A program made the position numbers and the translations under genes. A DNA stretch of 64,000 nt from Porphyra umbilicalis. Lineage: Eukaryota; Rhodophyta; Bangiophyceae; Bangiales; Bangiaceae. Location: assembly GCA_002049455.2 (NCBI GenBank), contig KV918776.1:372001-436000 (forward strand), written 5' to 3'. Each line of letters starts with the position of its first letter. Positions within the stretch are counted from its first letter, which is position 1. Below are positions 3,265 to 47,006 of this stretch, piece by piece. The notes beneath the pieces were generated by a model that was given only the letters and a program-made list of their open reading frames with translations, was not told the DNA's origin and ran no database searches.

Positions 3265-4926
3265 ACCAGAGTGCTTGACGGCTTCCGGTAACGGCGCACC
3301 GGTGGGGCAGGCCCCCACCTCCACGGGGGTTTGCACCGCCGCGCGGCGCCCCCCCCCCCGCCCCCCCCTCCCCAACGTTGGCGGCGCGCCGCGCGACAGG
3401 TGGCACCCGACGCGCCGCCCGCGCCACATGTGCGGCGACCGCGGGGGGGGGTGGGGCGAGAGGTGTGCGGCTGGCGGCGGCTGGCGCGGTCGCGTCGCGG
3501 CGGGGTGCCCATGGCGCGCCGCCACCAGCGCGTCGCGTGTGCGCCACGGCACGTCACGCACCGGTGCAAGCGTCGGTCAGGGGGGCGCGGCGGCGGTGGG
3601 GGCGCCGCCTGATGGGGGGGGAGGGGCACCCCGCCCCCCCACCGGGCGGCGGGGACCTCGTCTAACCGTTGCCGCTGCCGGCGGTGGCGGTGGGGGACGG
3701 GAGCGAGGCAGCGGCCGCGGGGCGCGACGGTAAGGCCACACACACCCCGCCGTCGGCGCGGGCGGGGCGGGGACGGGGCGGGTCCCCCCCCCCCTCCGCG
3801 CGCGGCCGGCGATGGCCTAGGCGCTCGCCCCGTTCCCCCTCTGGGTCTGACGCCACCCGCGCATCACGTACGGGGCGTACAGTGCCGTCGACGCGCGCGT
3901 GACGGCCCGCGGGGCCCGCCCCGCACGCGGCACCGGGGGGGCGGGTCACGGGGGTGGCAGCGCACCCGGCGGCGCTGCACGCCGTACGGGCTGCTCCAGC
4001 GGCGCTGGTGGCGGTGGGTGGGGCGCGGCCCCCCCCCCCCAACCCCCCCCCCTGCTGGGGGGACCCGCGTGCACCGCGTGCGCGTGCGGTCGCTCCACCT
4101 GTTGACACACAACCCCCCTGGGTGCGACGACGCGCCCCCGTGTGCGCTGCTGTTGTCCTCCGTCAGAAAGGGCGGGGTGGGGGGGGGGGGTGGGGTTGGG
4201 GTGAGTGCGCCGCGGACGCGTGGCGCCGGCAGACGGCGCGTGGTGTTCACGCGCAAGGCGAGCGCGGCACTGCCCCCCCGCCGGGTAGTGCGCGCCGGCG
4301 CCCGCTCTGCCGACTGCGGCTGCCGGCGGTGCTGCCAGTCGGTGTGCACCGCCGCCGCCGCCCGTGTCGTTGCTCCGTCGCGGGGGGAGTGGGGGGGGGG
4401 GGGTGAGGGGCCGGCGGCACCCGGGCGCGCGTCGGTGCGCGGGCGCGGGGCGTCTTTTTGGGTTGTGACCCCGCCGCCGCGGCGGTCGGGAGGGGGCCCC
4501 CACCGCCACGGGGATTGTCGGGGGGCGGCGGTCGTGCCCACTCGGTTTCGGTGGCGAACGTGCGTCGACGGGAGCGGAGGGCGGGTGGCACCTGGGCTCT
4601 CCCCCCCCCCACGGCGGCCACGACTCTCTCGATTCCCCCGCCGTCGTCAACGCCGCGGGCGGCACCCGCCGACGTGGGGGCGGCTTTCCCCCCCAAGCAC
4701 GGGGCGCGGTCGGTGCCGCTCTGCCGGCACTCCCACCCGCCTGTTGCTGCCGCTGTTGGCGGGCGGTGTTGACGACGCGGCGCCTCGCCGGTAGGTGGTG
4801 TTGCCCGTCCCCTCTGCTTTGCGGGGGGAGCTCCCTCCTTCCTCCACCGCCGACACACCCCGCCCGTCGACCCGACGCGCGTCGACGCTGCCCGACGGTC
4901 GGGCGCCCGTGCGGTGCCGTGCGGCG
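2861..4926. other. GC-rich low-complexity upstream region of the cellulose synthase gene
   Basis: No gene is seen. It contains a (GGC)n tract at about 3037-3083, a 29-base G run at 3233-3261, and many shorter C/G runs. It may include the promoter and 5' leader of the gene at 4927, but no TATA box is visible. Confidence 0.5.
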
Positions 4927-7200
4927 ATGGTGTTTTGGAGGCGAGCCGCCCCGGCAGAGGAAACGGATGTGGCCGACGCCGAGTCGGTGCCGCCCCCCGG
5001 CGCCGCGCATGGCGTCACGGGCGTATCGGTGACGGCCGTGCCCGCCGCGCCCCTAGTCCCAACGGTCGTCCAGACGTCCGCGGCGGCGCCGACGGCGCTG
5101 GCGGATGTGGCCATCCACCCGGCGCCGCCGCCGCGGAGGGCGCCAACGACAACGACGATGCCGCTGTCGAGGTCGGAGGATGCGGGCAACAACCAGTTTT
5201 CCCAATCCGCCGTCGCCTCGTCGGCGTCCCGCTCGTCGGGGCCCGGCTCGACAACGTCGACGACCGACTCGGAGCTCGACTTGCGGGTGCTGTCTGCGCG
5301 GGCGGCAGAGGACTTTTCCATCGGCCGGTGGGCCAAGTTCTTCACCCGCTACCACTTTATTTACATCTTCCTCCTCGTCCTGTGCTTCCTCTTTTACGGC
5401 TCGTCGGTGGCGGCGCTGATCATCTCCGTGTCGCTGCTCGAACTCAACATCATCGCCACGATTGTGTTTGCGGCGGTGCTCGGCGGCCAGCTGCTCTCGT
5501 CGCTGCCCATGTGGATAACGCTGCTCTTTTGGCGCGCGTGCCCGCCCATGGAGGGCACCATTGGCGTCGACGCGCACGGGCGGCTGCCGAGCGTGGACGT
5601 GGTCATCACGGTGTACAAGGAGGAGACGGAGATTATCGTGGGCACGCTCCTCGCCACGCAGCGGCTCGAGTATGACAGCAGCCGCCTGCACATTTACCTG
5701 CTCGACGACGGCCGCCGCCCCGAGCTCGCCGACATTGTTCGAGAGATGGGCGCAAGCGGCGCCTTGCGCCACCCCCTAACGTACCTGACCCGCGAGAGCA
5801 ACGCCGGTGCCAAGGGCGGCAACCTCAACCACTGGCTCCGCGCGTCGGCAGAGATGGCGGGCGAGTTTTTTGTGACGCTCGACGCAGACATGCAGCCGTT
5901 CCCCGACGCCCTTGCCATCCTGTTTGGCCACTGGTACGGCTATGACCGGGCGACGCGGGAGCGGCTGGCGTTTGTGCAGGCCCCCCAGTTCTTCCGGCAG
6001 CGCAAGCCCGGGGGCTTCCGTGACTCCTTTGACGTGTGCCTCATGTTCTTTTGCAAGACCCTCAACCCGTCGATGAACCGCTTTGGCTGCGTCATCTACG
6101 TTGGCTGCTGCGCGCTGTGGCGCCGCGACGCCATTGAGTCGGTCAATGGCTTCCACGAGGGCCACGCGACGGAAGACGCGGTCACGGGCTGCACCGTCCA
6201 CCGCACGCACGTGCCCGGCACCAACACCACGTGGCTCTCCAAGTACCTGTCTGTGCCCATTGCGGCGGGGCTGTCACCCCCGACGCTGCCGGCGCTCCTC
6301 GACCAGCGCCTGCGGTGGTACCTCGGCCTCATCGAGATGTTTGTACACCACCGGGGGTACCTGTTTGCGTCGCGCCTGACGCTCATGCAGCGGATTGCGT
6401 ATCTGGGGTCGGCCGGCAACTGGATTGCGGGGATTGTCAACTTCCTGGCGCTGCTGGCGGGCACCGTGACCATCTTTGCCATGATCATTGTGCAAGCGGC
6501 GGCGGGCGACTTGAACAACTCACGCTTTGCGTGGGCGTTTTGGTTCTCCACGTTTGCCTGCTTCATCACCTTCTTTGCGTGGCTGCTCCTGCCCGGCGCC
6601 GGGTGGGTGGCCAAGATCCGAGGCTCCCAAATGAGCTACATGTACACGTCAACCTTCATCGCCGCCATCTTCAAGTACTTTGGCGTCAACATTGCGGTGC
6701 AAAAGACGGCCGCCGACGTGGACGACGAGCGGCGGGTGTGGCACCCGCTCATGTGGATCAACGTCTTTGCGCTGGTGATCGTCTTTGGCGTCGGCGGCGT
6801 CGCCATCTGGCAGGTCGTCAACACGCCCGGCAAGAAGGAGACGGGGCCGATCCTGCAGATTGCCGTCTACCTCGGCGTCTGGGCGTTTTTGCACTGGCCC
6901 CTGTGGCTGGCCCTGGTCGGCTACCGTGCCAAGGAGGACGACTTTTACGCCAAGGAGGCGGAGGGCTTGCCCGACTACACGGACGTGGCGGTCAACAAGC
7001 TCGTCAACCAAACCCGCCGACGGACAATGGGCTCTGTGGCGGGCGGTGACGGGACCGCCGGCTCAGAGTACACCCGCTACAGCATTCGCCACGGGACGAT
7101 GAGCGAGCGGTCGTTTGAGGAGGTCCGCGACATGCTCGACGAGTATCGGCGGAAGAAGCGGGAGAGTACGGCGTCCAACCCGGTTTCGCCACCAGTTTGA
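4927..7200 (+). CDS. Cellulose synthase-like family 2 glycosyltransferase (GT2), multi-pass membrane protein
   Basis: The 757-residue single-exon protein starts at the first in-frame ATG (4927). An acidic, disordered N-terminus of about 130 residues precedes two or three membrane segments (about 140-205). The cytosolic GT2 domain then shows the full catalytic set: DDG at 260-262, DAD at 319-321, the FVQAPQ acceptor motif, TED at 415-417 and QRLRW at 460-464. About five further membrane helices follow (about 490-665), then a charged tail. This is the layout of processive beta-glucan synthases that use UDP-glucose at the plasma membrane. The plant CESA zinc finger, P-CR and CSR inserts are absent, so it resembles bacterial, oomycete or red-algal CESAs rather than land-plant ones. 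Cellulose is the likely product; another beta-glucan or mannan cannot be excluded from sequence. The frame is intact despite high GC. Confidence 0.93.
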   Translation: MVFWRRAAPAEETDVADAESVPPPGAAHGVTGVSVTAVPAAPLVPTVVQTSAAAPTALADVAIHPAPPPRRAPTTTTMPLSRSEDAGNNQFSQSAVASSASRSSGPGSTTSTTDSELDLRVLSARAAEDFSIGRWAKFFTRYHFIYIFLLVLCFLFYGSSVAALIISVSLLELNIIATIVFAAVLGGQLLSSLPMWITLLFWRACPPMEGTIGVDAHGRLPSVDVVITVYKEETEIIVGTLLATQRLEYDSSRLHIYLLDDGRRPELADIVREMGASGALRHPLTYLTRESNAGAKGGNLNHWLRASAEMAGEFFVTLDADMQPFPDALAILFGHWYGYDRATRERLAFVQAPQFFRQRKPGGFRDSFDVCLMFFCKTLNPSMNRFGCVIYVGCCALWRRDAIESVNGFHEGHATEDAVTGCTVHRTHVPGTNTTWLSKYLSVPIAAGLSPPTLPALLDQRLRWYLGLIEMFVHHRGYLFASRLTLMQRIAYLGSAGNWIAGIVNFLALLAGTVTIFAMIIVQAAAGDLNNSRFAWAFWFSTFACFITFFAWLLLPGAGWVAKIRGSQMSYMYTSTFIAAIFKYFGVNIAVQKTAADVDDERRVWHPLMWINVFALVIVFGVGGVAIWQVVNTPGKKETGPILQIAVYLGVWAFLHWPLWLALVGYRAKEDDFYAKEAEGLPDYTDVAVNKLVNQTRRRTMGSVAGGDGTAGSEYTRYSIRHGTMSERSFEEVRDMLDEYRRKKRESTASNPVSPPV

Positions 7201-9504: not shown

Positions 9505-10788
9505 ATGCCCGACGGCGCGGCCGCTCCTCGGGCCGGCGACGCCGCCGCCGACGGTGGCGGCGGTGGGCCAGGGCACGCGGCCGCGGCGGCGGCGGGCGTG
9601 ACCATCCTCTCGTCGGTGGGGGAGATGGTTGCCGCCCGGGAGCGGCTACCGGCGGGCACGCGGGTTGGGCTGGTGGCGACCATGGGCGCGCTCCACGGCG
9701 GCCACTTGGTAAGTGTGGCGCGGCGCACGGGGGACGGCTCTGGTGGATGGGGGACGGTGGTGGGGTGTGGGCTGCTTGCTTTGGCGGCAGCGGTGTTGTG
9801 TGAAAGCTCTGGTGTGGGGCTCTGATTGGATACCTGCCTGTGGTTCTGGCGCTGACGAGCACCGTCATGCTGCCTGATCGCTCTGTCGCATCGGCCACCT
9901 GCTTTTTCCTCCCCTGCCATGCATCCCAATCACCGCCACACGGCCAAAACCCCCTTTTATTCGCAGGAGCTGGTTCGCCGCTCCCTCGCCGACACGGACG
10001 TCACCATCGTCACCATTTACGTCAACCCGCTGCAGTTCTCCGCCACCGAAGACCTCGGCACCTACCCCCGCACCGTCGACGACGACGTGGCGCTCCTCAC
10101 CCCCCTCCTCGCCGCCCCCGCCGACGCCGGGACCCCCCCCCCCCCCCACCTCCTCTTCACCCCCACGGTCGCCGAAATGCGGCCGGCGGGGGCGACGACC
10201 ACCGTCGCCACCGCCGTCGGGGACGCGGCCGCCAACCCCTCCTCGGAAGGGGCGTCGCGCCCCCACTTTTTCGGCGGCGTCGCGACGGTCGTGGCCGCCC
10301 TGCTGCACCTCACTCGCCCGACCGTCGCCTTTTTCGGCGAAAAGGACGCGCAGCAGCTGGCGGTCGTCACCGCCCTGGCGCGGGACCTCCACTTTGGCAC
10401 GACCATCGTCGGCGTGCCGACGGTGCGGGAGGCCGACGGCGTCGCCGCCTCGTCCCGCAACGTCTACTTGACGGCCGCGGGGCGGGCGGCGGCGCCGGCG
10501 CTGTACCGCTCCCTCGTCGCCGCCCGCGACGCGTGGGCCGAGGCGGGGGAGACGGCCGCGTCGGCGCTGCGCGCCGCCGTGCGGCGGGGGGTGGACGCGG
10601 GGACGGCCGCGTCGGGCGGGCGGGTGCTGTACGTGAGCGTCGCCGACCGGTGGTCCATGGCCGAAGTCGACGGCGCCGTGCGGTCGGCGGCAGACGTGCG
10701 CGCGACGGCGCCGGGGGGGGAGGTCGTCGTGTGCGTCGCGGTGCAGTTGGGCGCCGCGCGGTTGATCGACAACATTGTGTTGCGGTGA
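9505..10788 (+). CDS. panC: Pantothenate synthetase (pantoate--beta-alanine ligase), two exons
   Basis: Condenses pantoate and beta-alanine with ATP to give pantothenate, the vitamin B5 precursor of coenzyme A. Exon 1 is 9505-9708 and exon 2 is 9967-10788; joined they give 341 residues. The splice falls inside the nucleotide-binding signature and restores it: MGALHGGHL from exon 1 joins ELVRRSL from exon 2. Further family hallmarks are VNPLQF, GEKDAQQL, VREADGVAASSRN (the KMSKS-like loop) and a C-terminal region ending LIDNIVLR. The Ala/Gly-rich N-terminal 30 residues could be a leader, but no clear transit peptide is visible. Length is slightly above the usual 280-310 because of that extension and a Pro-run insert near 10136-10148. 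The next gene, cornichon, converges on it. Confidence 0.95.
9709..9966 (+). other. panC intron, 258 bases
   Basis: The donor is GTAAGT directly after CACTTG; the acceptor is TTTTATTCGCAG before GAGCTGGTT. It is phase 0. Removing it rebuilds the conserved GHLELVR motif, which makes this the best-supported intron in the window. Confidence 0.93.
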
Positions 10789-11376: not shown

Positions 11377-11793
11377 TCACGACACCTCCAACAGCATCAT
11401 AATGAAGCGGTAGAGGTAAAAAAAAAAGCTCAGCAAGAAAAACCCAAGCTTCACCTCACAATACCGCCGCTCCCGCCCGAGCGACCCGAAGATGCGGGTG
11501 TTGTCGAGCAAATGCCGCCCACCCCGCACCGCCGAAATGTGCCAGCCGAGGAGCGGCACGTTGAGGGCAACGGCCACCCACTCGGCACGCAGCAGGAGCA
11601 AGGCGGTCATGGCCGCGTGGATGCCAATCGTAAAGCCGACGAGCCCGTTGACGCGGGAGCACAACTCGATGGGGTTGACGTGGTCCATGAGCAGGTCGGA
11701 AAAGAGGATGAGCGTGTAGACGGTGATGAAGAGCTCGCCCGAGATGGCGAGGAATATCGCCACCCAAAAGGTAACGTCGAGGGCGACGCCCAT
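11377..11793 (-). CDS. Cornichon / Erv14 family ER cargo receptor
   Basis: The 138-residue protein matches the usual length of cornichon proteins. These sit in ER-derived COPII vesicles and help export selected membrane cargo. The start is the ATG at 11793, directly before GVALDVTFWVAIFL. Family features in order are a first hydrophobic segment, the loop NPIELCSRVN, AEWVAVALNVPLLGWHI in the second or third segment, the acidic/aromatic DNTRIFGSLG loop, and the final KLGFFLLSFFFYLYRFIM helix. All membrane segments are intact and the ORF has no frame problems. It is divergently oriented to the HGSNAT-like gene. The assignment rests on several family-specific motifs, so it is firm; which cargo it carries cannot be told. 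Confidence 0.95.
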   Translation of the reverse strand: MGVALDVTFWVAIFLAISGELFITVYTLILFSDLLMDHVNPIELCSRVNGLVGFTIGIHAAMTALLLLRAEWVAVALNVPLLGWHISAVRGGRHLLDNTRIFGSLGRERRYCEVKLGFFLLSFFFYLYRFIMMLLEVS

Positions 11794-12354
11794 GGTGGCG
11801 GGGGGTGGTGAAGAGAGGGGAGCGCGCCCCACGGGAGGGAGCGGCCAGCAGCAGAAAAGGGCCGGTGGCAGACACCAAGACTGACAGAAAGCGGCCAGGG
11901 GACGAGCACCGCAGTGGTGCAGCGGGCGGGGCCGCAAAAGGACCTCGACAGGAACACACTGTCAAGGATCAAAGAGCAGGCACGAGGGCACCCGGACTCC
12001 CACCGCCGGCGTGCCAGACAGTGGCGGGACAGGATCGACACGGCGGGCCAGCCGCTGCCGCTGTCGGGACAGCAGAGGGACGAGACCAGACCCGCCCGCG
12101 TACGAGACGCGGCCGTTTCGCCGCGTCAGCGCCAAGTATTGGGTACTGGCGGCAGCAATTGTATTGCGATCTCTACAAGCTGACGACTCAGCCGCGATCA
12201 ATTCCATGTGGTCAGCGCTCACTGTCGCGGCTCTCGAGAAGACCCGCCTCGAGAACGAGCACCAACCGACCGCGGGATACTTACGACCATGCCACCGGTT
12301 TCCTTCTCTTCTCTCCCCGTGTCGCGTACCCCGCCCCTGTTGCAATATCTTCCC
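11794..12354. promoter_or_regulatory. bidirectional upstream region (cornichon / HGSNAT-like)
   Basis: A 560-base spacer between divergent genes, with lower GC than the coding flanks. No TATA box is apparent. Promoter role is inferred from orientation only. Confidence 0.35.
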
Positions 12355-28465: not shown

Positions 28466-31400
28466 CTACCACAGATTACGCACAGCGGCAAGCACATCCG
28501 GGCTAGCCTCCACAAAAACCTCCCCAGTCAACAATCTCCATTCTACAAGTCCTCCCGTCAGGCGATACCGCTCCTCCCCGGACAAACAAACGGCTGCGAC
28601 CGTTTCGCGTGAGACTTGTAGGACCCGCGCAGTCTCAGAGATGCTCCTCCAGATGACGATGGGCCCATCTCCTTGTCGCGTCCACACCCAGTGCCCATTG
28701 GTCGGGCCCATGGGTGGGGATCGTGTGTGCCTCTTAGTAGTCCAGTGGATAGTGCCTGGTGTCAGCTGCAATTGTCGATCGGATGAAAAACCTACGATCT
28801 CACCCGCGCGCGGATCGCCGTGGAAGTGGTGGCAGAAGGTTGTCTCCCAGGTCTGGATGAATGTACGGCCGCCCGTTCGTTGAAGCGCGTACCCGAGCTT
28901 ACGCCCAGACACCGCCGCTCGTGGCGGGGTGTTGTAGGCGATGGGCGCCAGCGCAACACCTCCTCGTCGCGTCTTAAATCGCCCCTTGTTTGACAGCCAC
29001 AGTTCTTGGTCCTCGTACTGCGACCACTCCTCGCCAGGTAGATCGCCAAAGTGCCGCTCCCAATGTAGGCTACAGAGTTTTACGCCGTCGATCGCAGCGG
29101 CATGGGTCTGCGACACGGTCAGCAGAGGGTACTGCTTGCACAACCCCAGCACCGCACATTCCGCATTGACGAAAAAGGTCCAAGGGTCGTCTGCCGACCT
29201 GCGACACCTCACCGCCTCACCGGCATACTTTTGCACCCGTCGAAGACCTCTTAAGGTGTTCTCCGCAGTGGTAACAGGTTCCAGGTTCCAGTAGATGTTG
29301 TTCTCCGTATTTCCGTCAACGTGGTCGATGACGTGGAAGGCGGGAAAATCGAAGAAGAGGTAGTAATACACACGATAGGTGAGGAACGCCGATGTCCTGG
29401 ATGTGGTGGAGAGCATGCTACGAAACTTCGGCCCGAGCTTCTCGTTGTCGTAGTCGGGAATTTGAAAGCGTGGGGGTCCGTTGAGGGTCCGCACCCGCGA
29501 CAGGGAGCTCAAAACCAACCTGCTGGTCCGGGGACGTGGCATGCCTTCGTACACATGCACACCTCTACGACGCGGGTCGGGCTGCCCGCGCGTATACTCT
29601 TGTGGAGGTCCTTTGATGACAACGGCAGCGTAAGCCGCCTGGCGCCGTAGCCAGGCTGCCGCAAGGAGTGACCCACGAACTTGTGCGCCAGGGGCGGCGA
29701 TGCTGGAGAGTTCCATCAGAAGCAGCTGATCCTCGCTCAATATCACCGTCTGCTGCTGTACTGCGGCATGTACGTCGCCGAAGGAAAGTGCAGCCGTGCG
29801 TCGCCGGCAACGGATGCCACGCCCGTGAACGACCGGCGTCGCACCACGCACAGCACGACGCACCTTGCGGCCGGTGCATTTCTCGGCCGCAGCGGGAACA
29901 GGTGACGGGAATGACGTCGAACAAGCGGCAGCGGCGTGTGAGGTTGTGTGCAAGACGTCGTACTCAGGCTCTTTAGCACCGCCGTCACCGTCGTACTCAG
30001 AGGATGATGCGAGAACACAAATTCGAGCGCAGGTGTCTGCGCTCATCCGCGAAGTAGAGGACGAAAACGAAGGCGGAGCCCAGGATGCGGACGACGCGAA
30101 AACGCTGGACGTCGAATTAGTGCTACAAGGAGAAGGTTCAGCAGAATTCACCCCGCTGATGTCGTCCTTGCCGTCGTCGGCGCCGCTGACGACCCCTTCG
30201 TCGCGCTTGGCCTCTTTGGGGCCGCACAACGGTGCGCCTTCGTCCATGGAACCACTTTCCGTTCCCCCGAGGTTCTGTGGTGGAAGTGATGGACGGCCGG
30301 CCGTACCGCATACGACTTGTCCGCACTCCAATGGTGCTGGCGTGGGTTGATCAACCAGAAACCAGTTGTGGAGATGTGGCTTGCGGATTGGCGGCCTAGT
30401 CCGCCCTGCCTTGGCGCAGTATTCTTGCTCGGCGGCGTCGTACGCCAGGCACTCCAATTGGTCATCTTGAGACGTAAAAACCCCAGATCGCCTTGCCGCC
30501 GTCAAGAGCCGCCCGTGTAGAACTCGCCTGCGTGAAACGGGGTCGATGCGCGGGATATCGGCAACGGCCTTGCCTGTTGCGACCACACCGCCGTTGAAGA
30601 GCATGAAGATTCCGCAGTTGTTCCCGTCCGACTGCTGCTGATGTCCTTCTGGCGTCGTCAGGGCTGGCTTCCACGGAGCGGGTGGGGCGACGAGACCCTG
30701 GAGACGTGCCAGGTAGTCCACCAGCCAAGTAACGTCGTCTGCCCATTCTCGTTCTTTTCTTGGGCCGTTGCACGAGGTCATGCTGTCAAAGATCTGAACC
30801 GTACGGTCGGTGGCGAAGACAACGGCGGCAGCCCAGTGGTTGTCGTCGATGTTGAGCGGAAAGAAGATGGAGCTCGCCTCACCAACGCGCAGATCACCGA
30901 CAAATACAGCTATTAATCGCAAGAGGTTGTCATTGCCAGCGCCCGCCTCACAGGACTTACGGTACTGGCGTGCGAGCGTGAAGAGTTGAGGGTGTGCCGA
31001 GGATGCTCGTCGTGTCCAGAAGGTGGTCTCAGCGACGATGTTATCTTCGGTGAGCCAGTTGCCGGGGTGTAGTGCGGTCAGGGCGCCCGGCACGTCCTGC
31101 GGCTTGAGGCCGAGTACAGTGATTGAAGCAGGATGTCGGTGAGCCCTAAGGTTGTCGTGGTTGCAGTTCTCGTAATGCTCCACCTCGGCCGTCGCGAGCT
31201 CTTGGCTCTCATGCTGTGGTGCGCCCTCCAGCACAGACGTTGTGAGTTTTGGAGCCTCACGGGGCGTTAAGGTGCTACAAGGACCAGTGGGGCCCCCGGC
31301 GTCAGGACCACTGTCAACGCCCGCAGCCCAGCAGGCCTCGTCCTTCCGGACAGGATCACCGCCGCCGTCAACACCGCCCGCTGGACCTCCATCAGTGTCT

Positions 31401-31801
31401 TGGATAGGAAGAACTCCGCCGTCCGTACCACCATCAGCACTCGCTACAGTGCCGTACACAATAATGGTCTCGGCATCTTGCTCCGGCTGCACCAGAGAGG
31501 GTGCGTTGGCGACGAGGACGTTGTGCGCCTCCGCCAGCCTGTTCCTTCTAATCATTCGAGCAAGGGTCTGGCCGTTGTCCGCCGTAGGTGTTTTGGAGTC
31601 ATGTACCAATCGGACAGGTCGCTCCGCAAGACGACGACGCTGCTTGTCGATGGCTTGTTGGCGCCGGTGCTCCTTCTGCTTCTTCATGCGGTGCTTCTTG
31701 TACGCCTTTTCGTCTGGCCACTTCACTGGCCGTCCTCGCTTACGGCGCTGCGGATTGTTGTCACCACCATCGCCATTGGAGCGCGAACCGCCTGCCTGCA
31801 T
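28466..31801 (-). CDS. Composite protein: AT-hook, Ulp1-type (C48) cysteine protease, HNH endonuclease with NUMOD-like modules
   Basis: Intact single-exon ORF of 1,111 residues from ATG 31801. Residues 19-30 (RRKRGRPVKW) form an AT-hook, followed by a basic, possibly coiled region. A C48 protease core covers about 230-440: PGNWLTEDNI, then NHWAAAVV with His322, IFDSM with Asp339, and QQQSDGNNCGIF with Gln390 and Cys396. This is the complete catalytic set of SUMO-type proteases. A Ser/Cys-rich linker follows. An HNH domain at about 790-850 has IDHVDGNTENNIYWNL (Asp826, His827, Asn834/835, Asn839). A NUMOD4-like piece follows (EEWSQYEDQELWLSNKGRFK, 924-943), then a NUMOD1-like helix-turn-helix (SISETARVLQVSRETVAAVC, 1053-1072). 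HNH/NUMOD belongs to homing endonucleases; Ulp1 domains often ride on eukaryotic transposons. GC is far lower than in the host genes. Host function or mobile function is undecided. Confidence 0.9.
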   Translation of the reverse strand: MQAGGSRSNGDGGDNNPQRRKRGRPVKWPDEKAYKKHRMKKQKEHRRQQAIDKQRRRLAERPVRLVHDSKTPTADNGQTLARMIRRNRLAEAHNVLVANAPSLVQPEQDAETIIVYGTVASADGGTDGGVLPIQDTDGGPAGGVDGGGDPVRKDEACWAAGVDSGPDAGGPTGPCSTLTPREAPKLTTSVLEGAPQHESQELATAEVEHYENCNHDNLRAHRHPASITVLGLKPQDVPGALTALHPGNWLTEDNIVAETTFWTRRASSAHPQLFTLARQYRKSCEAGAGNDNLLRLIAVFVGDLRVGEASSIFFPLNIDDNHWAAAVVFATDRTVQIFDSMTSCNGPRKEREWADDVTWLVDYLARLQGLVAPPAPWKPALTTPEGHQQQSDGNNCGIFMLFNGGVVATGKAVADIPRIDPVSRRRVLHGRLLTAARRSGVFTSQDDQLECLAYDAAEQEYCAKAGRTRPPIRKPHLHNWFLVDQPTPAPLECGQVVCGTAGRPSLPPQNLGGTESGSMDEGAPLCGPKEAKRDEGVVSGADDGKDDISGVNSAEPSPCSTNSTSSVFASSASWAPPSFSSSTSRMSADTCARICVLASSSEYDGDGGAKEPEYDVLHTTSHAAAACSTSFPSPVPAAAEKCTGRKVRRAVRGATPVVHGRGIRCRRRTAALSFGDVHAAVQQQTVILSEDQLLLMELSSIAAPGAQVRGSLLAAAWLRRQAAYAAVVIKGPPQEYTRGQPDPRRRGVHVYEGMPRPRTSRLVLSSLSRVRTLNGPPRFQIPDYDNEKLGPKFRSMLSTTSRTSAFLTYRVYYYLFFDFPAFHVIDHVDGNTENNIYWNLEPVTTAENTLRGLRRVQKYAGEAVRCRRSADDPWTFFVNAECAVLGLCKQYPLLTVSQTHAAAIDGVKLCSLHWERHFGDLPGEEWSQYEDQELWLSNKGRFKTRRGGVALAPIAYNTPPRAAVSGRKLGYALQRTGGRTFIQTWETTFCHHFHGDPRAGEIVGFSSDRQLQLTPGTIHWTTKRHTRSPPMGPTNGHWVWTRQGDGPIVIWRSISETARVLQVSRETVAAVCLSGEERYRLTGGLVEWRLLTGEVFVEASPDVLAAVRNLW

Positions 31802-32013
31802 GTGGACGGCCCCTGCGACAAGTGGCTGTAAAATGCCAGGTCACATCTGTTTTGCGAGAGCAGCGGAATAGAAAACGGATGCAAAGAGGAGGGTCGGATG
31901 CAAAGAGGAAGGTCATTAGGAAAGGTACGCTACTTTGTCAGGCATCTTTGCAACCCACATCTCACAACACTCGGAATCGGTCCAGCGTCCTACCAGAAAA
32001 GGGACGGACAAAA
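31802..32013. other. upstream flank of the Ulp1/HNH gene
   Basis: It contains a direct repeat of GGATGCAAAGAGGA at about 31877-31907 and runs directly into the 73-bp minisatellite. No terminal inverted repeat was found on either side of the gene. Confidence 0.4.
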
Positions 32014-33165
32014 GGCCACCAGCGCAGCGCGCGTCCGCCGGGCCACGCGCCGCGCGGGCCAGGGGACGGCGCATTGCCGGGCACAAGGCCACCAGCGCAG
32101 CGCGCGTCCGCCGGGCCACGCGCCGCGCGGGCCAGGGGACGGCGCATTGCCTGGCACAAGGCCACCAGCGCAGCGCGCGTCCGCCGGGCCACGCGCCGCG
32201 CGGGCCAGGGGACGGCGCATTGCCTGGCACAAGGCCACCAGCGCAGCGCGCGTCCGCCGGGCCACGCGCCGCGCGGGCCAGGGGACGGCGCATTGCCTGG
32301 CACAAGGCCACCAGCGCAGCGCGCGTCCGCCGGGCCACGCGCCGCGCGGGCCAGGGGACGGCGCATTGCCGGGCACAAGGCCACCAGCGCAGCGCGCGTC
32401 CGCCGGGCCACGCGCCGCGCGGGCCAGGGGACGGCGCATTGCCGGGCACAAGGCCACCAGCGCAGCGCGCGTCCGCCGGGCCACGCGCCGCGCGGGCCCG
32501 GGGACGGCGCATTGCCGGGCACAAGGCCACCAGCGCAGCGCGCGTCCGCCGGGCCACGCGCCGCGCGGGCCAGGGGACGGCGCATTGCCGGGCACAAGGC
32601 CACCAGCGCAGCGCGCGTCCGCCGGGCCACGCGCCGCGCGGGCCAGGGGACGGCGCATTGCCTGGCACAAGGCCACCAGCGCAGCGCGCGTCCGCCGGGC
32701 CACGCGCCGCGCGGGCCAGGGGACGGCGCATTGCCGGGCACAAGGCCACCAGCGCAGCGCACGTCCGCCGGGCCACGCGCCGCGCGGGCCAGGGGACGGC
32801 GCATTGCCGGGCACAAGGCCACCAGCGCAGCGCGCGTCCGCCGGGCCACGCGCCGCGCGGGCCAGGGGACGGCGCATTGCCGGGCACAAGGCCACCAGCG
32901 CAGCGCGCGTCCGCCGGGCCACGCGCCGCGCGGGCCAGGGGACGGCGCATTGCCGGGCACAAGGCCACCAGCGCAGCGCGCGTCCGCCGGGCCACGCGCC
33001 GCGCGGGCCAGGGGACGGCGCATTGCCTGGCACAAGGCCACCAGCGCAGCGCGCGTCCGCCGGGCCACGCGCCGCGCGGGCCAGGGGACGGCGCATTGCC
33101 GGGCACAAGGCCACCAGCGCAGCGCGCGTCCGCCGGGCCACGCGCCGCGCGGGCCAGGGGACGGC
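32014..33165. repeat. 73-bp minisatellite, about 15.8 copies
   Basis: Unit starts fall every 73 bp without exception: 32014, 32087, 32160 and so on to 33109. The unit begins GGCCACCAGCGCAGCGCGCG and ends GGGCACAA. Copies are almost identical; the main variant is CCGGG versus CCTGG before CACAAGG. The period is not a multiple of three and no frame has a stop, so all six frames look open. That is not evidence of coding. Confidence 0.97.
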
Positions 33166-33529: not shown

Positions 33530-33785
33530 TTCGGTCTGACATGCGCACATTCCTGTCTGACATGCACACATTCCGGTCTTACAGGAGTGCATTTCGAACT
33601 CATACTCACATTTTCATCTCACTGGTGAGCTTTTTCGTTTCTCGTGATCGTACATCTGTCTCACACGAGCGCCGTTTCGTCTCCCTCGCGAACTATTCCG
33701 TCTCTCGCGAGCGTCTGTTGGTCTCACGCGAGCTCCTTTTCGTCTGACACTCGAGCTTCTTCGTGTCTCGCGAATTCTTGTGGCG
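33530..33785. repeat. decayed 21-22-bp repeat array (GTCTCACGCGAGC family)
   Basis: About 12 diverged units share an ATTTCGGTCTGAC / TTTCGTCTCACGCGAGC core. Read on the other strand this is the same motif as the clean 21-bp array at 42549-43150. Units differ at many positions, so it looks old. Confidence 0.75.
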
Positions 33786-34951: not shown

Positions 34952-35287
34952 CTAAAACTGCTGGACGTCCAGGCGGTCGACGTCGGCGTCCGCCTTGTCC
35001 GACTCCTCCCCCAAGCCACACTCGGTCATGTTGTCATCGTGGTTGATCTGCCGCTTCTGCAAGCCCGCGCTCTTGGACCTCGGGGGTGGCAGCGTGCCCA
35101 CAGCCCTCACCAAGCGCCGAACCTGCACCGGCTTCACGCCGACGGAACGGAAGTCGGCCTGTGTGACCAGCTCCAGGTCCTCGACCGTGTCCACGCCGAG
35201 GATGTCGACGATGCCATCCGCATAGTCGCCCATCCGGTTATGCTCCAGCCAGGTACGTACTGTGTCCACGGTTACGAGTGACGACAT
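34952..35287 (-). CDS. SAM (sterile alpha motif) domain protein, 111 residues
   Basis: Starting at ATG 35287 (MSSLVTVD), residues about 6-64 match a SAM domain, a five-helix module for protein-protein or RNA contacts. The pieces are VRTWLEHNRMGDYADGIV, LGVDTVEDLELVTQADFRSV and GVKPVQVRRLVRAVGTL. A polar, acidic tail follows (ESDKADADVDRLDVQQF). The open frame extends 38 codons upstream to 35401, so a longer protein or an upstream exon is possible. There is no second domain to suggest a specific role. It sits in the lower-GC accessory region between minisatellites. Confidence 0.7.
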   Translation of the reverse strand: MSSLVTVDTVRTWLEHNRMGDYADGIVDILGVDTVEDLELVTQADFRSVGVKPVQVRRLVRAVGTLPPPRSKSAGLQKRQINHDDNMTECGLGEESDKADADVDRLDVQQF

Positions 35288-36324
35288 TGCGTGGTAGCCT
35301 TTGATGGACGTGTGCGGGGAGTTGGAGGACCGGGTGGAACCCAGAGTGGAGCAGCAGGCTACATCGCACCGCATACGCATGGGAAGCAGCTTGCCACCCA
35401 TCGTGGTCGGCTACTCGAGGCATCCTAGTCTGATGAGCGGCTCACATGAAGAGCCGAGTAGCACGCACACAGCCGGTGCGGATGCAACAGTGATTCGAAC
35501 AGTGCAAACAGCCGGGTGTTGAGGGGCGGGTGAGTAGATTCATGGACAGCAAACGATTGTACGAAAAGAAGCGAATGTCAGCGGCAGGACATAACCCGGA
35601 GGCTCTGTGTCAAGAGAATGGCATGAACTACCAGACGCGCACACGTAAACTCATGTGGGCTCGTCAATGACAATACAGTGGGTCAAGACAGACGACATAT
35701 ATCGTCCAGGCATAGGAACAGTGGTGGGCATGTGACCGCCTGCACTCTGACATGACGTCACACTCCGACTGCGGCTGAGCCCAGGGCGCACTGTAGTCGA
35801 AGACAGCACAGCTACAAAGAAAGCTCGTTCAACACAGCAGTAGGGCCATGGAGGTGTCACTGGGGGTGCTCTGGTCCTATGGACGGGTACCCAGAGGGCT
35901 ATAGCCGCGCGTTATCATCGGAAGTACAATGGGAACGCGGCCCAGTGTCAAGAGGAAGGCATCATACTGTAGAGGGGTACACTGCGCGTCCCATGGAATC
36001 TTCGCAAGGTTGAGCATGCGGAGGTACAGAACGTACACGGACATGGGCCAAGTGAGCGTCAGGAGGGTGGCACCAACCGCTCATATTGCTGGCGTGCAGG
36101 AAGCGTGAAGCGGACAAAGCGGTGCCAACGCCGGCGCCAGCGACGGCCAAGATCACGTCGTTGACCTGGCTCGACCGACAGAGTGGGCCTGACGGATCTG
36201 CGAACGGTCTGTACGACAACTGACATCGCAAGCATTGGGGATGCTGGACCGAACATTTTTCAGAGCGGGCTGTCTCAGTTCGAACGACCTGAAAACATAT
36301 GAGGATTCCGATTGTAGGCGCCAC
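35288..36324. other. no gene recognised
   Basis: Lower-GC DNA between the SAM gene and the decayed 21-bp array. Open frames are short and overlapping, and no RNA gene or inverted repeat was seen. Confidence 0.45.
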
Positions 36325-36480
36325 ATTTCGATCTCACTCAAGCGCTGTTTAGTCTCACACGCGAGCTTTCCTGTCTCTCGCGAGCGCATGTCGGTCTAAC
36401 ACGAACACATTATCGACTCACTCGGATGCTTTTTCGTCTCACGCGAGCGTATTTCGGCCGCACACAAGCGCAATCACGTA
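36325..36480. repeat. second decayed 21-22-bp repeat array
   Basis: About seven diverged units such as CATTTCGATCTCACTC and TTTTTCGTCTCACGCGAGCG, the same family and orientation as 33530-33785. It abuts the 61-bp minisatellite. Confidence 0.75.
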
Positions 36481-36504
36481 TGCAAAGAGAGACGGGGCCT
36501 GCTG

Positions 36505-39500
36505 TCGCGCGGCTATGGACCGCCCCTGTTGTGCGGGGGCGGGCCGAGCCGCGGCGGCTGCGCTGCCCCGCGGCTCTTGACCGCCCCTGTTGAGCGGGGG
36601 CGGGCCGAGCCGCGGCGGGTGCGCTGTCCTGCGGCTCTGGACCGCCCCTGTTGTGCGGGGGCGGGCCGAGCCGCGGCGGGTGCGCTGTCCTGCGGCTCTG
36701 GACCGCCCCTGTTGTGCGGGGGCGGGCCCAGCCGCGGCGGGTGCGCTGTCCTGCGGCTCTGGACCGCCCCTGTTGTGCCTGGGCGCGCCGAGCCGCGGCG
36801 GGCGTGCTGCCCCGCAGCGCCCCGCCCCCCTGTTGTGCGGGGGCCAGCCGAGCCGCGGCGGGCGTGCTGCCCCGCGGCTCTCGACCGCCCCTGTTGAGCG
36901 GGGGCGGGCCGAGCCGCGGCGGGCGTGCTGCCCCGCGGCTCTTGACCGCCCCTGTTGAGCGGGGGCGGGCCGAGCCGCGGCGGCTGCGCTGCCCCGCGGC
37001 TCTTGACCGCCCCTGTTGAGCGGGGGCGAGCCGAGCCGCGGCGGGTGCGCTGTCCTGCGGCTCTGGACCGCCCCTGTTGTGCCTGGGCGCGCCGAGCCGC
37101 GGCGGGCGTGCTGCCCCGCAGCGCCCCGCCCCCCTGTTGTGCGGGGGCCAGCCGAGCCGCGGCGGGCGTGCTGCCCCGCGGCTCTGGACCGCCCCTGTTG
37201 TGCGGGGGCGGGCCGAGCCGCGGTGGGTGCGCTGTCCTGCGGCTCTGGACCGCCCCTGTTGTGCCTGGGCGCGCCGAGCCGCGGCGGGCGTGCTGCCCCG
37301 CAGCGCCCCGCCCCCCTGTTGTGCGGGGGCCAGCCGAGCCGCGGTGGGTGCGCTGTCCTGCGGCTCTGGACCGCCCCTGTTGTGCGGGGGCGGGCCGAGC
37401 CGCGGTGGGTGCGCTGTTTCGCGTCTCTGGACCGCCCCTGTTGTGCGGGGCCGGGCCCAGCCGCGGCGGGTGCGCTGTCCCGCGGCTCTTGACCGCCCCT
37501 GTTGAGCGGGGGCGAGCCGAGCCGCGGCCGGTGCGCTGTCCTGCGGCTCTTGACCGCCCCTGTTGTGCGGGGGCGGGCCGAGCCGCGGCGGGCGTGCTGC
37601 CCCGCAGCGCCCCGCCCCCCTGCTGTGCGGGGGCCAGCCGAGCCGCGGCGGGCGTGCTGCCCCGCGGCTCTGGACCGCCCCTGTTGAGCGGGGGCGGGCC
37701 CAACCGCGGCGGGTGCGCTGTCCTGCGGCTCTGGACCGCCCCTGTTGTGCCTGGGCGCGCCGAGCCGCGGCGGGCGTGCTGCCCCGCAGCGCCCCGCCCC
37801 CCTGTTGCGCGGGGGCCAGCCGAGCCGCGGCGGGCGTGCTGCCCCGCGGCTCTGGACCGCCCATGTTGAGCGGAAGCGGGCCCAGCCGCGGCGGGTGCGC
37901 TGTCCTGCGGCTCTGGACCGCCCCTGTTGTGCCTGGGCGCGCCGAGCCGCGGTGGGCGTGCTGCCCCGCGGCTCTTGACCGCCCCTGTTGAGCGGGGGCG
38001 AGCCGAGCCGCGGCCGGTGCGCTGTCCTGCGGCTGTTGACCGCCCCTGTTGTGCAAGGGCGGGCCGAGCCGCGGCGGGTGCGCTGTCCTGCGGCTCTGGA
38101 CCGCCCCTGTTGTGCGGGGGCGGGCCGAGCCGCGGTGGGTGCGCTGTCCTGCGGCTCTGGACCGCCCCTGTTGTGCGGGGGCGGGCCGAGCCGCGGTGGG
38201 TGCGCTGTTTCGCGTCTCTGGACCGCCCCTGTTGTGCGGGGGCGGGCCCAGCCGCGGCGGGTGCGCTGTGCTGCGGCTCAGGACCGCCCCTGTTGTGCCT
38301 GGGCGCGCCGAGCCGCGGCGGGCGTGCTGCCCCGCAGCGCCCCGCCCCCTGTTGTGCGGGGGCCAGCCGAGCCGAGGCGGGCGTGCTGCCCCGCGGCTCT
38401 GGACCGCCCCTGTTGAGCGGGGCGGGCCGAGCCGCGGCGGGCGTGCTGCCCCGCGGCTCTCGACCGCCCCTGTTGAGCGGGGGCGGGCCGAGCCGCGGCG
38501 GGCGTGCTGCCCCGCGGCTCTTGACCGCCCCTGTTGAGCGGGGGCGGGCCGAGCCGCGGCGGCTGCGCTGCCCCGCGGCTCTTGACCGCCCCTGTTGAGC
38601 GGGGGCGAGCCGAGCCGCGGCGGGTGCGCTGTCCTGCGGCTCTGGACCGCCCCTGTTGTGCCTGGGCGCGCCGAGCCGCGGCGGGCGTGCTGCCCCGCAG
38701 CGCCCCGCCCCCCTGTTGTGCGGGGGCCAGCCGAGCCGCGGCGGGCGTGCTGCCCCGCGGCTCTGGACCGCCCCTGTTGTGCGGGGGCGGGCCGAGCCGC
38801 GGTGGGTGCGCTGTCCTGCGGCTCTGGACCGCCCCTGTTGTGCCTGGGCGCGCCGAGCCGCGGCGGGCGTGCTGCCCCGCAGCGCCCCGCCCCCCTGTTG
38901 TGCGGGGGCCAGCCGAGCCGCGGCGGGCGTGCTGCCCCGCGGCTCCGGACCGCCCCTGTTGAGCGGAAGCGGGCCCAGCCGCGGCGGGTGCGCTGTCCTG
39001 CGGCTCTGGACCGCCCCTGCTGTGCCTGGGCGCGCCGAGCCGCGGCGGGCGTGCTGCCCCGCGGCTCTTGACCGCCCCTGTTGAGCGGGGGCGAGCCGAG
39101 CCGCGGCCGGTGCGCTGTCCTGCGGCTGTTGACCGCGCCTGTTGTGCAAGGGCGGGCCGAGCCGCGGTGGGTGCGCTGTCCTGCGGCTCTGGACCGCCCC
39201 TGTTGTGCGGGGGCGGGCCGAGCCGCGGTGGGTGCGCTGTCCTGCGGCTCTGGACCGCCCCTGTTGTGCGGGGGCGGGCCGAGCCGCGGTGGGTGCGCTG
39301 TTTCGCGTCTCTGGACCGCCCCTGTTGTGCGGGGGCGGGCCCAGCCGCGGCGGGTGCGCTGTGCTGCGGCTCAGGACCGCCCCTGTTGTGCCTGGGCGCG
39401 CCGAGCCGCGGCGGGCGTGCTGCCCCGCAGCGCCCCGCCCCCCTGTTGTGCGGGGGCCAGCCGAGCCGAGGCGGGCGTGCTGCCCCGCGGCTCTCGACCG

Positions 39501-39840
39501 CCCCTGTTGAGCGGGGGCGGGCCGAGCCGCGGCGGGCGTGCTGCCCCGCGGCTCTTGACCGCCCCTGTTGAGCGGGTGCGGGCCGAGCCGCGGCGGGCGT
39601 GCTGCCCCGCGGCTCTCGACCGCCCCTGTTGAGCGGGGGCGGGCCGAGCCGCGGCGGGTGCGCTGTCCTGCGGCTCTGGACCGCCCCTGTTGTGCCTGGG
39701 CGCGCCGAGCCGCGGCGGGCGTGTTGCCCCGCGGCTCTTGACCGCCCCTGTTGAGCGGGGGCGAGCCGAGCCGCGGCGGGCGTGCTGCCCCGCGGCTCTT
39801 GACCGCCCCTGTTGAGCGGGGGCGAGCCGAGCCGCGGCGG
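36505..39840. repeat. 61-bp minisatellite, about 54 copies, with higher-order structure
   Basis: GACCGCCCCTGTT recurs every 61 bp (36518, 36579, 36640 and onward), with rare 1-bp indels. At least six unit variants differ at set positions: GTGCGGGGGCGGG, GAGCGGGGGCGGG, GTGCCTGGGCGCGCC, and so on. Variants are arranged in blocks; a run of variants near 37.98-38.40 kb recurs at 39.07-39.49 kb with an offset of about 1,093 bp (18 units). Long open frames on both strands are a by-product of stop-free GC-rich units. Confidence 0.97.
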
Positions 39841-39851
39841 GCCCGCTTGGT

Positions 39852-42545: not shown

Positions 42546-42548
42546 CCG

Positions 42549-43150
42549 CGTGAGACGGAAATGCGCCCGTGTGAGACGGAAATGCGCCCGCGTGAGACGG
42601 AAATGCGCCCGCGTGAGACGGAAATGCGCCCGCGTGAGACGGAAATGCGCCGTGTGAGACGGAAATGCGCCCGCGTGAGACGGAAATGCGCCCGCGTGAG
42701 ACGGAAATGCGCCCGCGTGAGACGGAAATGCGCCCGCGTGAGACGGAAATGCGCCCGCGTGAGACGGAAATGCGCCCGCGTGAGACGGAAATGCGCCCGC
42801 GTGAGACGGAAATGCGCCCGCGTGAGACGGAAATGCGCCCGCGTGAGACGGAAATGCGCCCGCGTGAGACGGAAATGCGCCCGCGTGAGACGGAAATGCG
42901 CCCGCGTGAGACGGAAATGCGCCCGCGTGAGACGGAAATGCGCCCCGCGTGAGACGGAAATGCGCCTGCGTGAGACGGAAATGCGCCCGCGTGAGACGGA
43001 AATGCGCCCGTGTGAGACGGAAATGCGCCCGCGTGAGACGGAAATGCGCCCGCGTGAGACGGAAATGCGCCCGCGTGAGATGGAAATGCGCCCGCGTGAG
43101 ACGGAAATGCGCCCGCGTGAGACGGAAATGCGCCCGCGTGAGACGGAAAT
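42549..43150. repeat. 21-bp minisatellite, about 28.7 copies
   Basis: Near-perfect head-to-tail copies of a 21-bp unit with core GTGAGACGGAAATGCGCC. A few units are one or two bases shorter or longer (about 42649 and 42940). Plus frames read as MRPRETE or RRKCARV heptads, minus frames as SHAGAFP. There are no spacers, so it is not CRISPR. The decayed arrays at 33.5 and 36.3 kb are relatives in the opposite orientation. Confidence 0.97.
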
Positions 43151-44355: not shown

Positions 44356-45482
44356 GTGGGGTCCCCCTGCCGTGTGGCGACCGCCGCCCGCGCCGACTGT
44401 GTCGCTGCGGCCGACCGGGACGGGGACGCAGGGCGACGCGTACCCCGACCCGCTGGTGGCGCCGGCTATGACCACCGCGCGCACGCGGTGCCCGGCCCCA
44501 AGGGGTACAACGCCCTTGATTTTAACGGCGACGGCAAGGAGCGTGTCACGCTCGACGGCCGCGGCTCCCACTCGCACTATTTCAATGCTGGCACCGGCGC
44601 CGCCGGCCGCATCGTCAAGTATCTGTGGACGCACGGCAGCAGCGGCGCTTGGATGGGCAACCAGCCGACCATGACAGCAACTTTCCCCCGCGGCCGCACG
44701 CCCGTCAAGCTCACCGTCACGGACAATACCGGGGACGTGGCGTCAGACGTGACGACCGTGACGGTCTCGGCCGGCGCATCCGCCGGGTGGTGGTGCTACT
44801 GGCTCGAGGGCGTCACCCGCTTGCCACCGCTGTGGCTCAAGGCCGCCCCGCGTCCCGTCTACGCGGCGCCGTCGGGGGCGGTGCGCTTTGGCGATGGCAA
44901 GTTTGGGTGGGCGGGCTACCCCAGCCCGTTTGGCACCGGCTGGGGCCTCCGCTGCGTCACGTCCGTGTCGGTCGGCCGCGCGGGGGCCTACCCGTTCAAG
45001 GTCACCGCCAATGGGCCCGTCGGCCTGTACGTCGGCACCAAGGCGGTGCTGTCCAAGCCGTGGGCGTCGGGCGCGCGCGCCGTGACGACGCAGTGGGCGC
45101 AGCTGGCGGCGGGCGCCAACGACGTGACGGTCGTGTTTTGGAAGCGGCACCCGAATTTGGGCACCGTGCAGCTCGACGCCCCGCCGGGCTCTTCCGTCGC
45201 GTATGCGGCGCCGCGGCTCCTCTCCGTGCTCGCGGGGCTGTCGACGGCCACGGGCGGCGCCGCCGGCGGGGCGACGGTGAAGCTCAGCGGCTCGGGCTTT
45301 TTCAACGGGGAGGTCGTCTACTTTGGCGACAAGGCCGCGGCGACGATCAATGACGGCGGCGGCTCGTCGTCGGATACGATGTACGTGCGGAGCCCGCCGG
45401 GGGTGGCCGGCACGACCGTGCCCGTGACGGTGCGGACGGGCAATGGCGTCAGCAACGCGCGCCCGTTCCGGTACGTTGCCGG

Positions 45483-45513
<31 letters not shown>

Positions 45514-47006
45514 AGCACGCACGTGCGGTACACGAGCAGCTTTCTCCAAAACAAGGGCGGCTCCAAATTCACCGCCGTCCCGCTGGCCACGTCCATCGCG
45601 CTCGGCGCCGACGGCGTCACCTACTTTGTCGGCTCCCTCAAGGGCAACGTGTACCAGGTGCGTGTGGCCGACCACGCGTCCATGACCGTCGCGTCGTGGT
45701 GCAAGGGCCCCTGGTCGGGCCCGAACCGCGTCATCACGGGGGTGGCGGTCAACCCCGCGCTCACGCACGGCTCGTTTGTGTATGCCTCGTCGAGCATCAT
45801 CAAGTACCGGTCCAAGGGCCTCTCCGTTGCGCAAGGCTGGGCCAACGGGCGCGTCGAGTTGTACAAGTCCCTGTCGAGCGGCGGGTGCCTCGTCAAAGTC
45901 AAGGACGTCATCACGGGCTTACCCGTCAGCGCCAATGACCACACGATTGCGGGCATTGCGTTTGACCAGCGGGGGGACCTGCTGCTGCAAGCCGGCGGCA
46001 GCACCAACGCCGGCTACAATGGCCCCGGCAGCGAATTGTCGGGGATGGTCGACGAGTCGCCCCTCTCTGGCGCCACCCTCATCGCCTACACGTCCAAAGG
46101 CGCCGCCTTTAACGGCCGCATCACGTACAACCAGATGGGGAACCCCGCGACGGCGGTGCAAACGGGCGGCGACGTGGCCGTCTACGCGGCGGGCCTGCGC
46201 AACAGCTTTGGCATCCTCCGCCACTCGTCGGGCACCCTCTTTGCGCTCGACAATGGGGGCAACAATGGCTACGGCCACATCCGCACGGGCTGCGGACCCG
46301 GCGCCCACAAGCCGTTTGCGCAGGGGGGCGACCCCGCCGACACGCTCGTCGCGCTCCGCCGGGGCGCCTACTATGGGCACCCCAACGTCAACCGCGGCCG
46401 CAAGGCGCCCGCGCAGTGCGTGTGGCGGCGGCCGTTTGAGACGGCTGGTGGGGCGACGGCGGCGCTCGCGACGCTCCCCTCGTCGACCAATGGCCTCACC
46501 GAGATGCGGTCGTCGGTGTTTCGGGGCGCCCTCAAGGGCCACCTCTTCTTCACCAAGTACGTTGGCGGCACGGCGGGCGCGGCGGGCATCATGTCGACGG
46601 CGACGGTCAAGGGCGGGGGCGGGGTCTCCAGGGCGGCGTCAGCTTCTTTTTTTCGTCGGGCGGCCTGTCGGTGGTGGCCAACCCGATGGGCGCCTTCCTC
46701 ATGACGCGCAACCAGCAGGGCTTCATCGCCGCCGCAGTGCCCGCCTACCGCCCCGGCGCGGCGCCCGAGGTGCTCGGCGTGGCGCCCGACCGGGGGCCCA
46801 AGCGCGGCGGCTACCGGCTGTACGTGGCGGGGTATAACTTTGGGGGGCGCCCGCAGGTGCGCGTCGGCGGCAAGCCGTGCACGGCCGTCACGGTCGTCGG
46901 CCCGCACGGGCTGACGTGCACGGCGCCGGCGGGGAGCGGCAAGGTGCCCGTCACCGTCAACGGCTCGCGCTCGTACGGCCATGACTTTGAGTACATGTTC
47001 ATCTAG
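44356..47006 (+). CDS. Multidomain extracellular-type protein: PKD, PA14-like, IPT/TIG, glucose/sorbosone dehydrogenase-like propeller, IPT/TIG
   Basis: The frame is open from 44356 but has no ATG, so an upstream exon is required. In order it has a PKD-like domain (ERVTLDGRGSHSHYF to VKLTVTDNTG), a PA14-like beta-barrel (GWWCYWLEGV, YPFKVTANGPVGLYVG, NDVTVVFWKR), and an IPT/TIG domain (VKLSGSGFFNGEVVYFG). A Gly linker follows. The six-bladed GSDH-type propeller has TIAGIAFDQRGDLLLQAGGS, AAGLRNSFGILRHSSGTLFA and LDNGGNNGYGH. A final TIG ends GSRSYGHDFEYMFI. The frame slips by one at a G-rich stretch (46611-46624); GLQGGVSFFFSSGG continues in the new frame. Such proteins act outside the cell on sugars or adhesion. 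A pyrroloquinoline-quinone enzyme activity is possible but unproven. Confidence 0.8.

Follow-up and report, generated by a model that had tools for sequence, protein, structure and literature searches.

An open reading frame (ORF) on the reverse strand of the window, as we call the whole 64,000-nucleotide stretch of DNA that was analysed, encodes a Ulp1-type peptidase fused to an HNH nuclease. Tentatively, we regard this ORF and its relatives as a lineage-specific, multi-copy and probably selfish family of nuclear genes from a GC-rich eukaryote, probably a protist; the family would spread in a homing-like manner, and its Ulp1 domain would counter SUMO-type control.

A Ulp1-type peptidase and an HNH nuclease in one frame

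The ORF and its parts are listed below.

28466..31801 (-): fused Ulp1-type peptidase / HNH nuclease ORF, 1,111 codons (Pfam and PHROG)
31622..31750 (-): basic N-terminal region, aa 18-60, with an AT-hook-like RKRGRP motif (by eye)
30572..30877 (-): Peptidase_C48 (Ulp1) match, aa 309-410, with H322, D339, Q390 and C396
29582..30301 (-): Ala/Ser/Gly-rich linker, aa 501-740, where differences between the two full-length sequences concentrate
29255..29347 (-): HNH_3 nuclease core, aa 819-849, with D826, H827, N839 and N848 (Pfam, PHROGs and alignment to I-HmuI)
28565..28669 (-): weak NUMOD1/HTH-like stretch, aa 1045-1079 (profiles below cut-off)

The original prediction of an uninterrupted frame of 1,111 codons was borne out. 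No stop interrupts it (GC 0.60), and the probability of an equally long open stretch is about 1.7e-16 for independent bases having the ORF's own composition. Profile searches supported both predicted enzymes, Peptidase_C48 and HNH_3, in that one frame.

The peptidase match was well above the Pfam cut-off of 20.7, with 46.3 bits (E=6e-12) in the whole protein and 48.9 bits in the isolated piece. The complete catalytic set that had been proposed is indeed present: in a weak alignment with yeast Ulp1 (1euv, E=0.014), all four catalytic letters are found. The domain is predicted to act on SUMO or a related modifier. When the same piece was compared to phages with tblastn, no match was found at E<=1. 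Its AlphaFold2 model had a mean pLDDT of 33.3 and was unusable.

For the nuclease, the HNH_3 profile gave 23.7 bits with the whole protein (E=3.6e-5), just below the cut-off of 24.8, and 29.8 bits with a 372-aa C-terminal piece (E=4.8e-7), which exceeds it. Four PHROG HNH families also matched, with E values of 3.5e-6 to 1.2e-3. In a weak alignment to I-HmuI (1u3e, E=0.47), D826, H827, N839 and N848 fall on D74, H75, N87 and N96. The core had been predicted to consist of Asp826-His827, N834 and N839. Asp826-His827 and N839 are supported by the profile and by the I-HmuI alignment, but N834 is not conserved. Because this position is a histidine in all four paralogues that cover it, N834 is unlikely to be catalytic. 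Given the role of the matching residue in I-HmuI, N848 is the likelier metal ligand.

The DNA-binding modules proposed around the core fared less well. For NUMOD4, no Pfam profile match was obtained at E<=10, either with the whole protein or with C-terminal pieces. Of the NUMOD1-like module a weak hint is left: in a 94-aa piece, I-HmuI_NUMOD-like reached E=0.026 with 14.6 bits, below its cut-off of 27, and HTH_17 was also found below cut-off (E=0.089). The suggested AT-hook can be seen by eye as the RKRGRP motif at aa 20-25, without a profile match. Arginine and lysine make up 33% of aa 1-60, and the basic N-terminal region had no convincing Pfam match. A tblastn search of phages with the C-terminal piece returned 448 records at E<=10; among the best 20 of them, the best E value was 0.06 and identity was always below 60%. 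PDB profile searches with pieces A5 and A2 gave weak or chance-level matches, NCBIfam gave nothing meaningful, and the AlphaFold2 model of the C-terminal piece was unusable (mean pLDDT 29.4).

The linker has no Pfam match, and it bears on whether the ORF might be two genes, or one gene with an in-frame intron, joined by chance in a single frame. Its low complexity and variable length would agree with such a junction, as would the lack of a codon-position signal in six of the 11 ORF segments, among them all three beyond the HNH core. However, none of 500 shuffles equalled the codon-position signal of the linker itself, the linker is free of stops over 240 codons, and its length differs between copies by 24 whole codons. 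A chance junction is therefore improbable.

Two other ideas on the organization of the protein were rejected. For an internal duplication of the C-terminal half, the local score of 25 was reached by 1767 of 2000 shuffles and hhalign gave a probability of 0.3%; the halves of P0003, a partial relative described below, fared likewise, with 511 of 2000 shuffles reaching their score. As for the self-cleavage of a polyprotein at Gly-Gly, the protein contains 15 GG and no motif is prominent.

Genomic setting

Cornichon, PUF, cyclin and pantoate ligase ORFs mark the window as a eukaryotic stretch. Several of its ordinary genes are single open frames, and for this reason the window looks intron-poor:

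4795-7197 (+): glycosyltransferase, single open frame
9919-10788 (+): pantoate ligase, single open frame
11380-11961 (-): cornichon, single open frame
44356-46701 (+): TIG/PKD protein, single open frame

A low-GC island and the absence of introns had been taken as signs of a foreign or selfish gene. The low-GC stretch is real, extending from 27.4 to 32.0 kb with a sharp drop at 27.4 kb, but comparable GC is also found at 33-36, 48-50.5 and 60-64 kb of the window. Other stretches or genes of the window share the low GC and the lack of introns, which makes these two features weak arguments for a foreign origin. What does speak for a foreign or selfish gene is its deviant GC3, together with the existence of multi-copy relatives, several of them decayed (see below). 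GC3 is 0.64 in the focal ORF as compared to 0.81-0.94 in nine other window ORFs, of which eight have a Pfam match above cut-off and one (TPR) a match just below it. A 152-codon ORF with a SAM-domain match (34955-35410, (-)), located inside the second low-GC stretch, has a GC3 of 0.84, like the other ORFs.

The neighbouring minisatellite was confirmed directly 5′ of the ORF, at 32005-33165, with a 73-bp unit present in 15.9 copies at 98% match. Other repeats were observed further away. A large tandem array of 61-bp / 304-bp units occupies 36501-39847, the short unit being present in about 55 copies. An array of a 21-bp repeat, with unit CGTCTCACGCGAGCGCATTT, lies at 42546-43150, and the unit also occurs at 33720-33739 and 36372-36454; it has 29 matches with at most three mismatches, as compared to 0.01 expected.

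Between 26.5 and 34.5 kb, 20 inverted pairs were counted, two of which flank the ORF (17 nt at 88% and 14 nt at 86%), these being raw counts without a control; no clear terminal inverted repeats were found in this interval. Pfam scans detected no transposase domain in the focal protein or in the selected window ORFs, and no capsid, packaging ATPase, polymerase or integrase in the latter. Neither Rfam nor tRNA scans returned a match in the window.

Relatives, decayed copies and constraint

In order to find relatives, 5.8 billion proteins were searched, candidates being identified by shared exact 5-residue words. In the first search, performed with the whole protein, the best 7,994 candidates by shared words were scored. 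The original prediction had proposed to look for the same architecture in other genomes. Within these candidates, one full-length relative was found, P0002, with 97% identity and a 24-residue in-frame length difference; all other relatives matched one half. The seven partial relatives from the 5.8 billion proteins comprise four that correspond to the HNH half (P0003-P0006) and three that correspond to the C48 half (P0007-P0009). Three of the seven (P0005, P0006 and P0009) are frameshifted with respect to the window ORF and need more than one frame to align. In P0003, D826-H827 and N839 are replaced, and the frame continues beyond the stop of the window ORF. P0007 keeps H322 and D339 and ends before the position of the cysteine, while P0008 ends at H322. 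In all three C48-half relatives, 12 residues precede the catalytic histidine that are missing in the window copy and in P0002 (30302-31240, (-)).

P0005, an HNH half, and P0008, a C48 half, are each listed on a contig of 15,220 bp. This equal length suggests that the two are one decayed copy that formerly had both halves, and the fusion probably predates the window copy. More generally, the occurrence of incomplete and disrupted relatives in environmental DNA points to a selfish gene family that pairs two enzymes in an unusual way. Searches of the viral_contigs collection with the window protein (P0001) and with pieces A4 and A2 gave no relative, and neither did searches of the genome_contigs collection with A4 and P0001.

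We then asked how long copies would stay open under drift. The simulations started from the window copy, with kappa set to 1, 2 or 4 and 1000 runs per setting. P0003 is open over 362 gapless residues at 67% identity; drift kept such a frame free of stops in 4, 1 and 0 of 1000 runs. For P0004, open over 288 gapless residues at 73% identity, the corresponding values were 14, 19 and 8 of 1000. A separate run gave 0 of 300 (P0003) and 4 of 300 (P0004). By the same model, P0007 stayed open in 118, 97 and 76 of 1000 runs, and P0008 in 302, 272 and 254. These values are to be read with the model placing on one lineage all of a divergence that really arose on two, ignoring indels, and being applied to a database of open frames, which favours open copies. 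P0003 and P0004 are thus open for longer than drift gives, which argues for past constraint, and both look to have been constrained through much of their history; P0007 and P0008 give no such argument. As for the two full-length sequences, the window copy and P0002 differ by 10 substitutions, six in the 240-residue linker versus four in the remaining 871 residues (Fisher p=0.009).

The two full-length open sequences, which differ little outside the linker, along with long constraint on the paralogues, might also be expected if the family consisted of domesticated or ordinary host genes, with a chromatin or repair function using both domains and with normal pseudogenes as the decayed copies. 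However, the low GC3 of the ORF relative to its neighbours, the finding of one full-length relative among the candidates scored and the large share of partial or frameshifted copies in a small set of relatives make this explanation quite unlikely.

The foreign-looking GC3 would also fit a viral relic, namely a composite gene that a DNA virus or polinton-like virus (PLV) left behind after integration and that was copied with the surrounding DNA. Both HNH nucleases and Ulp1-type proteases are known from such elements: according to the available part of PMC11071308, a Ulp1-family protease is found in Polintons and HNH domains in the Tlr1-like helicases of PLVs, and the accessible text of PMC12220804 describes in a Symbiodinium PLV an HNH_3 with NUMOD4 and AP2. 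Nevertheless, the selected window ORFs scanned with Pfam have no capsid, ATPase, polymerase or integrase domain, the viral_contigs collection held no relative, and the HNH domains of PLVs are reported, in these partial sources, as fused to helicases and not to a protease. We consider a viral relic unlikely.

A possible selfish nuclear gene

A selfish, lineage-specific nuclear gene fits the data best, because two active sites are kept, several partial or frameshifted copies exist, past constraint was long, codon usage is foreign and the distribution is very narrow. The following steps can be imagined for it. The protein would bind DNA through its basic N-terminus and its C-terminal region, and the HNH domain would nick or cut a chromosomal target. 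Host repair would then copy the element into the break, resulting in homing-like spread. Meanwhile, chromatin or repair proteins would lose SUMO, or a related modifier, to the Ulp1-type domain, so that silencing would be blunted or repair steered.

It is possible, though we hold it to be doubtful, that the family represents a class of nuclear selfish genes that is new. A single protein of this class would cut chromosomal DNA with its HNH domain and, at the cut, take off SUMO-type marks with its Ulp1 domain, thereby overcoming host silencing or steering host repair to copy the element. In the part of the literature surveyed, no Ulp1-HNH fusion was found. If this proposal is true, a single selfish protein couples target cutting to the removal of SUMO-type marks, which would tie the mobility of DNA directly to the control of host chromatin. 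Phage-type HNH_3 nucleases would then also be represented among multi-copy genes of eukaryotes, with a regulatory enzyme joined to them.

Comparison with known systems

The protein resembles the I-HmuI-type HNH homing endonucleases of phages by its HNH_3 core, by the equivalents of D74, H75, N87 and N96 (weak alignment) and perhaps by a weak C-terminal NUMOD-like stretch. In contrast to these enzymes, the HNH domain stands here behind a Ulp1-type peptidase and in a eukaryotic context. Moreover, NUMOD4 was not detected, and about 195 residues separate the HNH core from the NUMOD1-like stretch.

Crinkler-type effectors have both HNH and Ulp1-like domains in their repertoire, as seen in the portion of PMC5289972 at hand. 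A secreted or inter-organismal effector of this type could therefore be envisaged, as HNH nuclease and Ulp1-type peptidase are given as alternative C-termini (PMC5289972, PMC3482391, both in part). However, the partial sources describe them as separate C-termini and not in one protein, whereas here both enzymes are in one chain, and the Pfam matches at E<=10 include neither a Crinkler header nor another effector leader. We consider an effector very improbable.

HNH genes of the polinton-like viruses of protists share the HNH_3 domain with the ORF and place it in a protist mobile element, in one case between NUMOD4 and AP2 (available part of PMC12220804). They differ by their reported fusions, which are to helicases in the text available, and capsid genes are absent from the ORFs scanned here.

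Finally, the Ulp1-bearing transposons of plants (Kaonashi/KIU in Vandal-type MULEs) also have a Ulp1 domain in the protein of a multi-copy element. As reported in the accessible part of PMC13317346, Vandal/Kaonashi elements escape silencing, no role is established for their Ulp1 domain, and no combination of transposase and HNH is mentioned; in the window, the scanned ORFs contain no transposase. An HNH domain joined to Ulp1 is not described in the parts consulted of the sources on Vandal/Kaonashi elements (PMC13317346) and on PLV HNH genes (PMC12220804, PMC11071308). By our comparison, these Ulp1-bearing elements and the PLV HNH genes are the nearest precedents of the fused gene.
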